The position numbers and the translations under genes are program-made. Of a stretch of DNA of 33,749 nucleotides, positions 6,961 through 16,506 are shown one piece after another. Each line of letters opens with the position of its first letter. Position 1 is the first letter of the stretch. A model generated the notes under the pieces. The model ran no database searches. It was not told the DNA's origin and saw nothing but the letters and a program-made list of their open reading frames with translations. The stretch comes from Syntrophales bacterium (GTDB taxonomy: Bacteria > Desulfobacterota > Desulfobaccia > Desulfobaccales > 0-14-0-80-60-11): NCBI GenBank assembly GCA_028688935.1, contig JAQTXE010000005.1, forward strand, positions 1-33,749. Reading direction: 5' to 3'.

Positions 6961-7384
6961 GAGTCAACCTAAAACGGTGGAGTCGGTCGGACTAAACTCT
7001 TTTGCCGGCCGGTATCCGAGCTGACACCCCGGCTGGAGGCTAACCACTCAAAGGTTTACTTGCTGACAACCCCGGCTGCGACCTGGGTAGCTTTAATGGT
7101 CATCTGGCCGGGTGGAATTCCTTTCACCTTTTGAGCTTCCCCTCTATTTTCGCTTGAGTCTCCTCCGAGAAAACCGCTGAGCAAGGATGAATGCCTTTAC
7201 ATTGCAGGCTAATATGTCACTATCTGCTATATCTGTGCCGTTTCAACCAAAATAATCGATATTCTGGATGGTAGTCCTAGCTGGAGTTCAGATCATGCCG
7301 ATTGCCCCGCTCTGCTTAAGTTCCCGGCTTGGAAACCGGAACCGGAAAAGGTCCCCCCACAGTTCGACTTGACCTCCTTGCCCC

Positions 7385-7430: not shown

Positions 7431-7467
7431 CTGCTGCTATTGCCAGATCCCGGAGGAGAGCCCGGTG

Positions 7468-8676
7468 ATGCGCCCTGCAGCCTCAAACTTGGGGGATGAG
7501 GTGGTCCTGGAGGCCCAGGCCCTCCAACAACTGCTGGAGGTCTTGTCCGGCCGGGGTTATCAAGTGGTGGGCCCCACCTTGCGTCAGGGTTCCCTGGTCT
7601 ATGACCGGCTCTCCTCCCTGGACGATCTCCCCCGGGGCTGGGGGGACCAACAGGAGGGGGGCTTTTTCCGGCTGCGGCCCCTGAACGAGCCGGCCCTGTT
7701 CGGCTACGGGGTGGGGCAGAAATCCTGGAAGGAGTTTCTCTATCCTCCCCGCCGCCGGTTGTGGCCGGCCAGGCAGGAGGCTCATGGCCTCCAGATCCTC
7801 CCCCCCGGCGAAGATGCGGTGAAATTTGCCTTTATCGGCGTCCATCCTTGCGACCTGCACGCCATCGCCGTCCAGGATAAAGTCTTTCTGGAAGGTCCCT
7901 ATCTTGACCTGCATTATCAGGCCCGGCGGCAATCCGCCTTTATCCTGGCGGTGAACTGCGGGCACGCTTGCGGCACCGGTTTCTGCGTCTCCATGGGCAC
8001 CGGCCCCCGGGCTAGTTCCGGTTTTGACCTGGCCCTGACGGAAATTCTGGCAGAGGCGCGGCATTATCTGGTGGTGACCGTGGGCTCGGAAAAGGGGCGG
8101 CAAGTCATCAGCCAACTGCCTCACCGGCGGGCCCAGGCTCAGGAGCTGGAGGCCGCGGCCAAAGTGGTGGCCCAGGCCGCGGGGCAGATGGGGCGGAGCC
8201 TGGATACCACGGAGATCAAGGCCTTACTTTATCGTAACTATGACAATCCCCGTTGGGACCAGGTGGCGGCCCGCTGCCTCACTTGCGGCAACTGCACCCT
8301 GGTCTGCCCCACCTGCTTCTGCCATACCGTTGAAGATACTTCGGGCCTGACGGGCGAGCAGGCGGAGCGCTGGCGGCGCTGGGATGTCTGTTATACCGTG
8401 GATTTTAGCTACCTGCACGGCGGCAGTATCCGGGCCACGCCCCGGTCCCGCTACCGCCAGTGGCTGACCCACAAACTGGCCACCTGGATCGATCAGTTCG
8501 GGGTTTCGGGCTGCGTGGGCTGTGGCCGCTGTATCACCTGGTGTCCGGTGGCCATCGACATTACCGCGGAAGTCCGGGCCATCCGGGAAGGCGAGAGGTC
8601 AGGGGCCAGGGGCCAGGGGCCAGGGGCCAGGGGCCAGGGGGCAGGGATTAGTAAAGGAACGGATAAATCAAATTGA
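7468..8676 (+). CDS. hydB: [NiFe] sulfhydrogenase beta subunit (iron-sulfur; HydB / AsrA-like)
   Basis: A 402-residue iron-sulfur protein related to sulfhydrogenase HydB and anaerobic sulfite reductase subunit A. Two C-terminal ferredoxin-type clusters are visible: [16 protein letters not shown] (from residue 270) and [13 protein letters not shown] (from about residue 348). Together they pass electrons from the FAD subunit towards the hydrogenase core. Two Cys pairs also occur mid-protein ([10 protein letters not shown]). GGAGGAG precedes a GTG/ATG pair; I use the ATG at 7468, and the longer start at 7369 lacks support. The last 25 or so residues are an in-frame (GGGGCCA)n repeat translated as [13 protein letters not shown], absent from the conserved fold. 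It is the first gene of the hydrogenase operon. Confidence 0.88.
8597..8650 (+). repeat. Heptamer tandem repeat (GGGGCCA)n, family C copy 1
   Basis: Five tandem GGGGCCA-type units (AGGGGCC phase) plus degenerate flanks, inside the 3' end of hydB. Related tracts occur on the opposite strand in cbiA (29306-29335) and, degenerate, at 28283-28317. Confidence 0.85.
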
Positions 8677-8757
8677 TCTTTGACCCCCTAATATGTCAAT
8701 TCACCTTCAATTGAAACAAACTGGCAATGTAACTCACTGGGAATGCAGCTTTTTTAA

Positions 8758-8788
8758 CGGAAAACGAAAAACGGAAAACGAAAAACGG
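8758..8788 (-). repeat. Heptamer repeat (TTTTCGG/TTTTCGT)n, family A copy 1
   Basis: CGGAAAACGAAAAACGG repeated, the reverse complement of the TTTTCGGTTTTCGG tracts at 10969 and 27281. It ends at the Shine-Dalgarno of the cNMP-binding gene. Confidence 0.85.
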
Positions 8789-8798
8789 GAGTAACGGC

Positions 8799-9251
8799 AT
8801 GGAGACGCTGGAGCCCGTGTTAGCGGCACACCCTTTTTTACAAGGCCTGGACCCCCGGCATCTGAAGATTATCGGGGAGTGCGCCTCCAAGGTGAATTTC
8901 AGCGCCGGGGAATTTCTTTTCCGGGAGCAGGATGAGGCCACCAATTTCTATCTGATCAATCACGGCCGGGTGGCGGTGGAGATTTTCCGGGCCCGCCGGG
9001 GTCCCGTCAACGTGCAAACCCTGAGGGAAGGTGAGGCCGTGGGCTGGCTCTGGTTCGGAAAGCCCTACCACTGGCACTTCGACGCCCGGGCCGTCCAGCT
9101 TACCCGGGCCCTGGCCCTGGACGTCAAATCCCTGATGCAAAGATGTGATCAAGACCCCCAGTTGGGCTACGAGCTGATGAAGAGATACGCCCACATGCTG
9201 GCGGTGCAGTTCCGGGTGGCTATTTTGCAACTAGGTGATATGTATGGATGA
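8799..9251 (+). CDS. Stand-alone cyclic-nucleotide-binding-domain protein in hydrogenase operon
   Basis: A 150-residue protein consisting of a cNMP-binding (Crp-type) beta-roll only. FLQGLDPRHLKIIGECASKV opens the domain, then FSAGEFLFREQDEATNFYLI and the GRVAVE turn. LREGEAVGW stands where the phosphate-binding cassette (GE...) is expected, but the usual R-A/S-A motif is replaced by a Trp/His-rich stretch (FGKPYHWHF), so nucleotide binding may be altered. No DNA-binding helix-turn-helix follows, so it is not a classical Crp/Fnr regulator. It lies between the beta and gamma genes, in the same direction, with GGGAG 6 nt before ATG. A regulatory or structural subunit of the hydrogenase is inferred. 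Confidence 0.8.
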   Translation: METLEPVLAAHPFLQGLDPRHLKIIGECASKVNFSAGEFLFREQDEATNFYLINHGRVAVEIFRARRGPVNVQTLREGEAVGWLWFGKPYHWHFDARAVQLTRALALDVKSLMQRCDQDPQLGYELMKRYAHMLAVQFRVAILQLGDMYG

Positions 9252-9253
9252 TT

Positions 9254-9319
9254 AGCTGCCAGCGGTCAGCTTATTTTTTGGGTTTTATGTTTTTAGCTGA
9301 AAGCTGACCGCTGATAGCT
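9254..9319. repeat. 19-bp inverted repeat of AGCTGAC type, family B copy 1
   Basis: AGCTGCCAGCGGTCAGCTT (9254-9272) and AAGCTGACCGCTGATAGCT (9301-9319) pair at 17 of 19 positions around a T-rich 28-nt loop. The same words recur at 12418-12467 and 16472-16506. It fills the spacer between the cNMP gene and hydG. Confidence 0.85.
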
Positions 9320-9339: not shown

Positions 9340-10179
9340 ATGTGTAGCCAACTTACCGACCCCATGCTGCCGACTCCCTATCAGGTCCTGAAAAGGGTCC
9401 GGGAAACCAAGGACACCTTTACCCTGACCTTGGCTCCGGTTAAGGGCGGGCAGGGTTTTCCTTTTGCCCCCGGCCAGTTCAATATGCTCTATATCTTCGG
9501 CGTGGGGGAAGTGCCCATCTCCATCAGCGGCGACCCGGACCGGCCGGAGAAGCTGGTGCATACAGTCAGGGCCGTGGGCGCGGTGAGCCGGGCTATCTGC
9601 GGTCTGAAGAAAGGGGACACCCTGGGGGTGCGGGGCCCCTACGGCGTGCCCTGGCCGGTTAAAGCCGCGCCGGGCTATGACGTGTTGGTGATCGCCGGGG
9701 GCTTGGGATTGGCTCCGGTGCGGCCCGCGGTTTACCATCTATTGGCCCGCCGCCCGGAGTATGGCAACCTGGAACTTATTTACGGGGCCCGCACCCCGGA
9801 AGACTTGGTCTATCGCCGGGAACTGTCGCTTTGGCGGGGGCGCTTCGATTTCCGGGTGCACGTCACCGTGGACGCGGCCCGCAATGGCTGGCGGGGCAAC
9901 GTGGGGGTGGTGCCCAATCTCATTGCCCGGGCCCGGTTCGACCCGGAGCAGACCATGGCCCTGGTCTGCGGCCCCGGGGTGATGATGCGCTTCACGGTCC
10001 AGGAGCTGGTGAACCGGGGACTGAAGATGGAAAACATCTACGTCTCCCTGGAGCGGAACATGAAATGCGGCCTGGGCCTCTGCGGCCACTGCCAGTTAGG
10101 GCCCTTTTTCGTCTGCAAGGACGGGCCAGTCTTCCCCTATGACCGGGTCCGGGACTGGTTCCTGATGCGGGAGGTTTAA
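9340..10179 (+). CDS. hydG: [NiFe] sulfhydrogenase gamma subunit, FAD/NAD(P)-binding (HydG / AsrB-like)
   Basis: A 279-residue flavoprotein of the ferredoxin-NADP reductase fold. An N-terminal FAD barrel ([20 protein letters not shown]) is followed by an NAD(P) domain with [16 protein letters not shown] and CGPGVMMRF. The C-terminus carries a [2Fe-2S] motif, [17 protein letters not shown], spaced C-x4-C-x2-C-x7-C. This is the domain order of HydG and of dihydroorotate-dehydrogenase electron-transfer subunits. By family knowledge it exchanges electrons with NAD(P)H. The ATG at 9340 lacks a good Shine-Dalgarno, and Met9 (9364) is an alternative. The hydD gene starts 1 nt after its stop, indicating tight coupling of the two products. 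Confidence 0.9.
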
Positions 10180-10180
10180 C

Positions 10181-10963
10181 ATGCCCCGGAAAAGACGCCC
10201 CAAGCTGGCGGTGTGGAAATTCGCCTCCTGCGACGGCTGCCAGTTGTCCTTGCTGGATTGCGAAGACGAACTGCTGACCATCGCCGGGGAGCTGGAGATC
10301 TCCTACTTCGTGGAGGCCTCGAAAGCGGTGGTCAAAGGCCCCTACGATATTTCCCTGGTGGAGGGCTCCATTGCCGCGCCCCACGACCTGGAGCGCATTC
10401 AGCACGTGCGGCAAATTTCCAAATTCGTTATGCCCATCGGCGCCTGCGCCACCGCCGGGGGCATCCAGGGGCTGCGCAATTTCGCTAAGGTGGAAAATTA
10501 TATCCCCCTGGTCTATGCCCGCCCCCAAGTTATCGAGGCCCTGGAGACCTCCACTCCCATCTCCGCCCATGTGCCGGTGGACTTTGAGCTCCAGGGCTGC
10601 CCCATCAACAAGCGGCAGCTGGTGGAGGTGGTGAGCGCCCTGCTCCAGGGGCGCAAACCCGTGGTCTCGCCCCACAGCGTCTGCATGGAATGTAAAATGC
10701 GGGGAAATATCTGCGTGCAGGTGGCCTTGGGGATTCCCTGTCTGGGGCCGGTGACCCACGCGGGCTGCGGCGCCATCTGCCCCACTTATCAGCGTGGCTG
10801 TTACGGCTGCTATGGACCCAAGGAGACGCCCAACACCGCGTCCTTGAGCGCCTGGTTCAGCCAGCGCCTGGGGGTGACGGAGCCCGAACTGCTGCGGCTC
10901 TTCCGCACCTTCAACGCCGGGGCCGAACCCTTCCGCCAGGAGAGCGAGGCCCATGACCACTGA
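10181..10963 (+). CDS. hydD: [NiFe] sulfhydrogenase delta (small) subunit HydD
   Basis: A 260-residue small subunit of a group 3 [NiFe] hydrogenase, related to the 20-kDa subunit of complex I. The proximal cluster motif [12 protein letters not shown] (Cys near 18 and 21), the GACATAGG segment and a Cys-rich C-terminus ([14 protein letters not shown], then [19 protein letters not shown]) are visible, consistent with three [4Fe-4S] clusters. It lacks a Tat signal, so it is cytoplasmic. GGAGG lies 6 nt before the ATG. A 139-nt gap with two repeat elements separates it from its partner, the large-subunit gene. Confidence 0.93.
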
Positions 10964-11102: not shown

Positions 11103-12413
11103 ATGATCATGCCATCTAAAGGACAAAATACCAGAACCATCAAGGTGGACTACCTGGCCCGGGTGGAGGGGGAAGGCGCCCTGCATATCAAGATCAAGGA
11201 GGGCGCAGTGGCCGGGATGCAACTCCAGATCTGGGAGCCCCCCCGCTTTTTCGAGGCCTTCTTAAGGGGCCGCTATTTCACCGAGGCCCCGGACATCACC
11301 GCCCGCATCTGCGGTATCTGCCCGGTGGCCTACCAGATGAGTTCCGTGCACGCCCTGGAAGACGCCCTGGGGGTGCAGGTGGATGGACCTTTAAGGGCGC
11401 TGCGGCGCCTGATCTATTGCGGGGAGTGGATCGAAAGCCACGCCCTGCACCTCTTCATGCTCCACGCCCCGGATTTTTTGGGGTACGACGACTCCCTGCG
11501 GATGGCCCGGGACCACCCGGAATTGGTGAAGATGGGCCTGCAATTGAAAAAGGTGGGCAACCAGTTGGTGGCCCTGGTGGGGGGCCGGGAGATCCACCCC
11601 ATCAACGTGCGGGTGGGGGGCTTTTATCGGGTGCCCACCAAGGCTGAACTGGCGCCCCTGGCAGAGCGCCTCAAGTGGGCCCGGGACGCGGCGGTCAAGA
11701 CTGTGGCCTGGGTGGGGGGCTTTACTTTTCCCGACCACGAGATGGACTATGAATTCGTGGCCCTGCGCCACCCGGACGAATACCCCTTCAATGCCGGCCG
11801 TCTGGTGTCCAACCGGGGCCTGGACCTTGAGGTTAGGGATTACGAGGAGCATTTCCAGGAAGAGCACATCCCCTATACCCATGCCCTCCATTCGGTGCTG
11901 CAAGGCCGGGGAGCTTATTTTGTTGGTCCTTTGGCCCGCTATAACCTCAACTTTGACCGCCTCCCACCCCTGGCCCAGGAGGCCGCTAGGCAAGCGGGCC
12001 TGGGGCCGGTGTGTTCGAATCCCTTTCAGAGCATCATTGTTAGGGCCGTGGAAATCCTTCATGCGGTGGATGAAGCCCTGCGCTTGATTGAGAGTTACGA
12101 GATGCCGGACGCTCCTGCGGTGAAACTGGAGGTCCGGGCCGGGGCAGGATGCGGCTGCACCGAAGCCCCCCGGGGGATCTTATATCACCGCTACCGCTTG
12201 GATGAGGCGGGACTGATCCAGGAAGCGAAGATCGTCCCCCCCACTTCCCAGAACCAGAAGAGCATCGAGGAGGACCTGCGGCGATTTGTCACCGGCCACC
12301 TGGACCTGCCCCAGGATCAGCTCACCTGGCAATGCGAACAGATGATTCGCAACTATGACCCGTGTATTTCTTGTGCGACGCATTTTTTAAAGTTGAAGCT
12401 GGAAGGCGAGTAA
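11103..12413 (+). CDS. hydA: [NiFe] hydrogenase large (alpha) subunit HydA, group 3b-like
   Basis: A 436-residue catalytic subunit. The two [NiFe]-ligand motifs are intact: [10 protein letters not shown] (Cys70, Cys73) and DPCISCATH (Cys421, Cys424). The nine residues after His427 (FLKLKLEGE) are the C-terminal extension that the maturation protease removes. Length and motifs fit cytoplasmic group 3 enzymes. The gene order beta-gamma-delta-alpha and the NAD(P)-binding gamma subunit point to group 3b (sulfhydrogenase / NADP-linked) rather than F420-linked 3a or heterodisulfide-linked 3c. The start is ATG at 11103 or 11109; neither has a strong Shine-Dalgarno, perhaps because repeats fill the upstream spacer. 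The enzyme interconverts H2 and NAD(P)H, and may reduce polysulfide. Confidence 0.95.
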
Positions 12414-12417
12414 AAGA

Positions 12418-12467
12418 AGCTATCAGCTTAAAAGCTTAAAGGCTGAAAGCTGATCGCTGACAGCTTT
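12418..12467. repeat. AGCTGATAGCT-type dyad, family B copy 2
   Basis: AGCTATCAGCTT and a downstream AAGCTGATCGCTGACAGCTT resemble the arms of the 9254-9319 element. It fills the hydA-protease spacer. Confidence 0.8.
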
Positions 12468-12512: not shown

Positions 12513-12977
12513 ATGAATAAGAATGGTGAGACCTTAATCATCGGCATCGGCAATATCTTCAGGGGCGATGACCTGGCGGGCCTGGCCGCGGCCCGCCTGC
12601 TCCGGGAAGGGCAGCTTCCGGGGGTAAAGGTCCTGGAATTCGACGGAGATATGACCGGGTTGTTGGACGCCTGGGAGGGGGCCGCCAAGGTAATCGTCAT
12701 CGACGCGGTGACTTCCAAGTCGCCGGCGGGCACCATCTTCCGGTTCGACGCCCATGAGCAGCCTCTGCCCCAAAAGATGTTCGCCACCTGCTGCTCTTGC
12801 CACGCCTTCGGGGTGGCCCAGCAGATCGAAATCGCCCGCTCCCTCAAGCAACTGCCGCCTTGTCTCATTGTTTACGGCATTGAAGGGCAAGATTTTACCC
12901 TGGGGTCCAAGCTTTCGCCGGAAGTGGAGCAAGCCCTGCCCCGGTTGGTGGAGCAGGTCCAACAGGAATTGAATTAA
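12513..12977 (+). CDS. [NiFe] hydrogenase maturation protease (HycI/HybD family)
   Basis: A 154-residue endopeptidase of family M52. The opening LIIGIGNIFRGDDLAG, the IDAV segment and SCHAFG supply the three expected nickel-sensing ligands: Asp20, Asp64 and His97 by direct count. By family knowledge it cleaves the C-terminal extension of the large subunit after nickel insertion; the adjacent hydA product has a nine-residue extension for it. The ATG at 12513 has GGAGG about 16 nt upstream, which is far for a ribosome site, yet no better start is in frame. It is the last gene of the operon and faces a minus-strand EF-hand gene. Confidence 0.92.
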   Translation: MNKNGETLIIGIGNIFRGDDLAGLAAARLLREGQLPGVKVLEFDGDMTGLLDAWEGAAKVIVIDAVTSKSPAGTIFRFDAHEQPLPQKMFATCCSCHAFGVAQQIEIARSLKQLPPCLIVYGIEGQDFTLGSKLSPEVEQALPRLVEQVQQELN

Positions 12978-16471: not shown

Positions 16472-16506
16472 AAGCTGTCAGCTAGCAGCGGTCAGCTTTC
16501 AGTTTT
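16472..16506. repeat. AGCTGTCAGC/GGTCAGCTTTCAG repeat, family B copy 3
   Basis: AAGCTGTCAGCTAGCAGCGG followed by TCAGCTTTCAG shares its words with the elements at 9254 and 12418. It lies immediately after the synthetase stop codon. A looser relative (GCTATTCGCTGTTAGCTAAA) lies at 16587-16606. Confidence 0.75.

Follow-up and report, generated by a model that had tools for sequence, protein, structure and literature searches.

A [NiFe] hydrogenase operon in the window (the whole stretch of DNA analysed, 33,749 nucleotides of a Syntrophales bacterium contig) carries a small gene for a cNMP-type (CNB) protein, which raises the question of what such a domain does among the subunits of an enzyme that exchanges electrons between H2 and NAD(P)H. 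The genes of the operon follow one another in the order beta, cNMP, gamma, delta, alpha and maturation protease, all on the plus strand (Table 1), with the cNMP gene flanked by beta and gamma just as the first-pass annotation had placed it. The alpha, beta, gamma and delta subunits are all homologous to sulfhydrogenase, and by this subunit homology we class the enzyme as group-3b-like; the best NCBIfam matches of the subunits are Shy/Hyd models, all scoring under their Thermococcales-type equivalog cut-offs (for example, alpha at 283.8 of 700 bits).

Table 1 Features of the hydrogenase operon and of the CNB protein, in window coordinates
Feature	Position	Strand	Remark
Hydrogenase beta subunit (HydB/AsrA-like, Fer4_22)	7462..8676	+	ORF reaches upstream to TTG at 7369
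cNMP-type (CNB) single-domain protein, proposed sensor subunit	8799..9251	+	150 aa
Altered phosphate-binding cassette, residues 78-98	9030..9092	+	G-x-x-x-G-W-x-W-x-x-x-P-Y-x-W-x-x-D-A-R-A
Predicted C-terminal helix, residues 120-149 (30 residues); possible dimerisation/docking helix	9156..9245	+	AlphaFold prediction
Hydrogenase gamma subunit (HydG-like FAD/NAD(P) reductase)	9340..10179	+	
Hydrogenase delta (small) subunit	10181..10963	+	
Hydrogenase alpha (large, NiFe) subunit	11103..12413	+	
Hydrogenase maturation protease (HycI-type)	12513..12977	+	TIGR00072 above cut-off

A single-domain CNB protein under purifying selection

The cNMP ORF is intact, with 150 codons, an ATG start and a good ribosome-binding site (GGGAG, about 7 nt 5' of the ATG). 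It is separated from the beta gene by 122 nt containing short repeats. Repeats of this sort, with a 7-nt period, are of three kinds in the window (GGGGCCA, AAAACGG/AAAACGA and TCAGCGG/TCAGCTT) and lie at positions 8597-8645, 8756-8790, 9254-9319, 12448-12465 and 16480-16504; the GGGGCCA repeat extends the C-terminus of beta, and the TCAGCGG/TCAGCTT repeat makes up an inverted repeat in the interval from cNMP to gamma.

The Pfam profile PF00027 (cNMP_binding) matched residues 32-119 of the protein (E=1.3e-11; 44.7 bits against a cut-off of 27.5), and the same profile search found no second Pfam family. An AlphaFold model built from 81 input sequences (mean pLDDT, 87.5) begins with two short helices, continues with a beta-roll and another short helix, and closes with a C-terminal helix of 30 residues, and Foldseek searches with this predicted fold matched both Crp-type and PKA-type CNB structures. 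Profile match and predicted beta-roll together place the protein in the CNB domain superfamily. In both the Pfam search and the model a helix-turn-helix is absent, the chain stopping after the C-helix, which rules out a Crp/Fnr transcription factor and agrees with the earlier description of a bare Crp-type beta-roll lacking a DNA-binding domain. An anti-phage role was considered and dropped, since PADLOC gave no match. Comparison with same-genus orthologues yielded a dN of 0.12-0.16 versus a dS of 0.58-1.05, indicating purifying selection; together with the presence of orthologues in 27 of the 29 genomes of the window's class, Desulfobaccia, this shows that the gene is not a product of chance.

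Distribution and gene order

All 27 full-length Desulfobaccia orthologues adjoin beta, with gamma on the opposite flank wherever the contig goes on. An alignment-led scan for the cNMP gene itself, limited to one genome per species, yielded 182 confirmed relatives, of which 80 were kept, and beta lies immediately 5' of the cNMP gene in every one of these 80 loci. Gamma lies immediately 3' in all but two, namely L105, where the contig ends after the cNMP gene, and L114, where beta is apparently broken and hypE comes next. The 80 loci come from about 19 named phyla and include one archaeal MAG, Candidatus Benthortus lauensis (L086), in which beta-cNMP-gamma-delta-alpha is found on a contig binned to the archaeon, perhaps through transfer or mis-binning. 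The same beta-cNMP-gamma order occurs on plasmids of Burkholderia savannae and Rhodococcus sp. DK17. The first-pass annotation had noted such genes beside some group 3b hydrogenases, and this association proved to extend across about 20 phyla with gene order kept.

A survey of group 3b neighbourhoods, which the annotation had also proposed, was carried out by searching a gamma-subunit profile in five phyla and then classifying the loci. Among the 61 group-3b-type loci, 52 carry the cNMP gene, a fraction biased upward because operons with the cNMP gene supplied the sequences for the gamma profile; 44 of these have the order beta-cNMP-gamma (one, L242, with no delta or alpha inside its stretch) and 8 have the order cNMP-beta-gamma. 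That the gene stays with the operon when its order changes in this way supports an operon subunit. The other nine loci were found to be without the gene when stretches of 8-16 kb were checked, so the enzyme as such does not depend on it. For Desulfobacterota the two surveys agree, as the top 10 genomes by gamma match and the top 10 by cNMP match are the same. In several Chloroflexota loci (L284-L288, L211-L214 and L222) beta and gamma are fused in one ORF of about 650-760 aa, with the cNMP gene upstream.

In a FastTree phylogeny of the delta subunit, the beta-cNMP-gamma loci occupy one side of a branch with support 86, cNMP-first and negative loci branch near the base of that side, and three changes suffice to explain presence and absence of the cNMP gene, on a tree of modest support with some long branches. 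Overall, we consider a functional link between the gene and the hydrogenase highly likely.

Single-domain CNB homologues with a GWSW motif are also encoded on Streptomyces plasmids away from hydrogenases (L039:6983-7438 and L041:6938-7390), the latter beside genes for universal-stress and CBS-domain proteins. These homologues would be in keeping with a passenger of the operon, or with what is left of a Crp-type transcription factor, whose action, if it has one, lies elsewhere in the cell. Such an origin sits poorly with a length of about 150 aa throughout, the missing helix-turn-helix, purifying selection and a gene that has persisted in about 20 phyla even where the gene order changed, and we regard it as highly improbable.

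Genomic coupling to the beta-gamma module

Spacing within the operon is tight: the cNMP gene starts within 50 nt of beta in 74 of the 80 scan loci, and in 38 its start overlaps the stop of beta, most commonly by 14 nt. Pairwise distances of the cNMP protein track those of delta (correlation 0.76) and gamma (0.66), as expected for co-inherited parts, and give no pointer to a docking partner. None of 210 cNMP ORFs was a natural fusion with beta or gamma, of the kind that would demonstrate direct contact. The protein is probably a physically bound subunit of the hydrogenase.

Loci with other hydrogenase or electron-transfer genes were also seen. In two Terriglobia MAGs (L065:4830-12432 and L096:4833-12351) a beta-cNMP-gamma block lies directly upstream of hoxEFUYH (group 3d), with HoxE and HoxU of L065 exceeding their NCBIfam cut-offs; with this combination, a single group-3d hydrogenase would have two modules able to react with NAD(P)H. 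In another locus (L179:1-8060, genome G151) an HdrA2-like gene is followed by beta-gamma, behind which comes a divergent cNMP gene; NiFe subunits were not seen within the stretch. In L065, L096 and L179 the constant neighbour of the cNMP gene is the NAD(P)H/Fe-S module and not the group-3b NiFe subunits, and by this neighbourhood inference the blocks with hoxEFUYH and the HdrA2-like gene suggest beta-gamma as the partner. A counter-example comes from Anaerolineae genome G226, which holds three close copies of the cNMP gene; there (L226:382-6949), two tandem cNMP genes, one of the W92 type, follow the NiFe subunits in an hdrA-vhuG-vhuA-protease cluster, with no beta-gamma.

A tight coupling of this kind would also be expected of a scaffold or assembly factor, that is, a ligand-free CNB partner that stabilises beta-gamma (through FAD/Fe-S loading or oligomerisation) and senses nothing. 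The same explanation could accommodate the loss of canonical ligand contacts described below and the C-terminal helix, where R137, Q144, D147 and Y149 are among the highly conserved residues. However, conservation of the pocket cassette equals that of the C-helix, which is unexpected in a dead pocket, and the precedent of HoxI (see below) is regulatory, making a mere scaffold unlikely in our view.

An altered ligand pocket

In alignment with three CNB proteins of the window's genome that retain GE...R[ST]A (L002, L003 and L005), W83 of the window protein replaces the canonical Glu and W92 the phosphate-binding Arg. Among 126 beta-cNMP-gamma relatives, position 83 is mostly Trp and never Glu, and position 92 is Trp in about 91% and Arg in only three; Trp occupies both positions in 98 and the pair Ala/Trp is found in 12. 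The suspected alteration of the phosphate-binding cassette is thus confirmed. Its characterisation as Trp/His-rich needs dividing, with Trp prevailing among these relatives and His enrichment applying to this lineage (H91-W-H93) but not to the family, in which Arg is the usual residue at position 91 and 58% have His at position 93. With its length of about 150 aa, its gene next to beta in a hydrogenase operon and Trp at position 92, the window protein belongs to a CNB subfamily linked to group-3b hydrogenases. In cNMP-first lineages W83 is mostly kept and cassettes are T/S-rich, two of them with an R-T-A motif.

Having W83 and W92 instead of Glu and Arg, the protein does not qualify as a canonical CRP/PKA-type cyclic-nucleotide sensor, and with both key phosphate-cassette residues gone, cAMP is unlikely as a canonical ligand. 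G82, W85, P89, Y90, W92 and A96 are nevertheless conserved within the cassette; the family is not a canonical binder of cAMP, yet its cassette looks maintained as though there were still something to bind. A sensor of cAMP or cGMP with an unusual but working cassette would account for the PF00027 match and for the R-T-A motif kept in some cNMP-first relatives, and the window's genome encodes 11 class-III cyclase domains, so that an argument against cAMP from absent cyclases fails. The counts of Glu83 and Arg92 among the 126 relatives nonetheless make such a sensor very unlikely.

Conserved cysteines offer a further explanation, in which Cys28, Cys111 and Cys116 would sense oxidation and set hydrogenase activity as a thiol redox switch, the pocket being secondary. 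Cys28 and Cys111 occur together in 116 of the 126 relatives, 97 of which also have Cys116, but the window protein itself has Ser111, Cys111 is missing in 8 of the 27 class members and the cNMP-first relatives are without both Cys28 and Cys111. We consider this switch quite unlikely.

A proposed regulatory subunit

The explanation that we favour, with a probability of roughly 0.55, is that the cNMP gene encodes a regulatory subunit dedicated to the group-3b [NiFe] hydrogenases of bacteria, one that binds a ligand and tunes H2/NAD(P)H exchange. Its basis in this analysis is the predicted CNB fold, the absence of a DNA-binding domain, the altered cassette, operon association with co-inheritance, and the finding of the gene alongside other beta-gamma modules. 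Running counter to a subunit are the Streptomyces relatives away from hydrogenases, the L226 locus without beta-gamma and the solved Pyrococcus chains, among which only beta and gamma were matched. Ligand sensing and regulation as such we hold to be slightly more likely than not, and with HoxI as a real precedent the allosteric subunit suggested by the first-pass annotation is plausible.

Mechanistically, the regulatory subunit would form a homodimer through its long C-helix and dock on the beta-gamma NAD(P)H:Fe-S module. A small ligand other than a canonical cyclic nucleotide may occupy the beta-roll pocket, with an aromatic, Trp-based cassette in place of the contacts to the cAMP phosphate. 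Ligand occupancy would then shift the C-helix and thereby set the ease of electron passage between H2 and NAD(P)H, or would bring oxidised enzyme back to activity, in a manner akin to that of HoxI and NADPH in the Cupriavidus soluble hydrogenase. More tentatively, and as something less likely than not, one could picture a CNB subfamily that swapped cyclic-nucleotide binding for a Trp-lined pocket and became a near-standard fifth subunit, sensing the NADP(H) pool or some other ligand that is not cyclic and gating H2/NAD(P)H exchange at beta-gamma, with the beta-cNMP-gamma block also moving onto group 3d enzymes.

Group 3b hydrogenases are widespread, and the solved relatives of beta and gamma that we found are from Pyrococcus only, with no cNMP subunit matched. 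If most bacterial enzymes bear a sensor subunit, the archaeal model misses how they choose between making and using H2, and a rebuilt pocket, if true, would give a very common fold a ligand specificity new to it. These predictions are directly testable because the gene has cultured carriers, including Desulfobacca acetoxidans, Paraburkholderia kururiensis, Halomonas beimenensis and Rhodococcus sp. DK17. The protein is probably a regulatory part of the enzyme that has so far gone unstudied.

Comparison with known systems

The nearest functional parallel is HoxI of the Cupriavidus necator H16 soluble hydrogenase (HoxHYFUI2, plasmid pHG1), which is likewise a bare CNB protein without a helix-turn-helix from the operon of a cytoplasmic NAD-linked group 3 hydrogenase (PMC3702609, PMC3189943). 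HoxI is bound to the diaphorase as a homodimer, activation by NADPH is confined to the six-subunit, HoxI-containing enzyme (PMC3702609), and high salt and alkaline pH detach HoxI (PMC3189943). In contrast to the window gene, hoxI follows hoxW in a group 3d operon, and its product retains the cassette Glu, with His at the Arg site. HoxI has 21% identity to the window protein and scores 40.5 bits on the window family profile, under L004 (55) and L001 (46), two ordinary CNB proteins encoded in the window's genome, for which reasons we reject orthology and family membership; as HoxI lies outside this subfamily, the parallel is one of analogy.

CNB genes have been listed in the group 3b cluster of Rhodococcus equi 103S (PMC13332983) and, under the name HoxI, in the methanotroph 'M. 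acidophilus' 29 (PMC12319191), in both cases as annotation without a functional test, which fits the earlier statement that the role is not established, as far as the open-access literature goes. In Mycobacterium smegmatis Hyd3, beta and gamma have consecutive locus tags (PMC2799521), from which the cNMP gene may be lacking there. Beta and gamma of Pyrococcus furiosus sulfhydrogenase 1 (PDB 9nez, 9nf0) are homologous to those of the window and were matched in a sequence search of its chains, in which the cNMP protein found no match.

Among solved structures the closest to the window protein, and its best sequence match (E=1e-6), is Gmet_1532 of Geobacter metallireducens (PDB 3mdp), a structural-genomics entry with 25% identity, a TM-score of 0.77/0.87 and a K-P-Y-H-aromatic cassette stretch common to both. 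A more distant parallel, and only that, is the cAMP-independent PKA regulatory subunit of Trypanosoma (PDB 6ftf, 6hyi, 6hyq), which differs in being a eukaryotic two-domain kinase regulator (about 26% identity); its CNB structures were solved with inosine or guanosine and indicate that the CNB fold can switch ligand.
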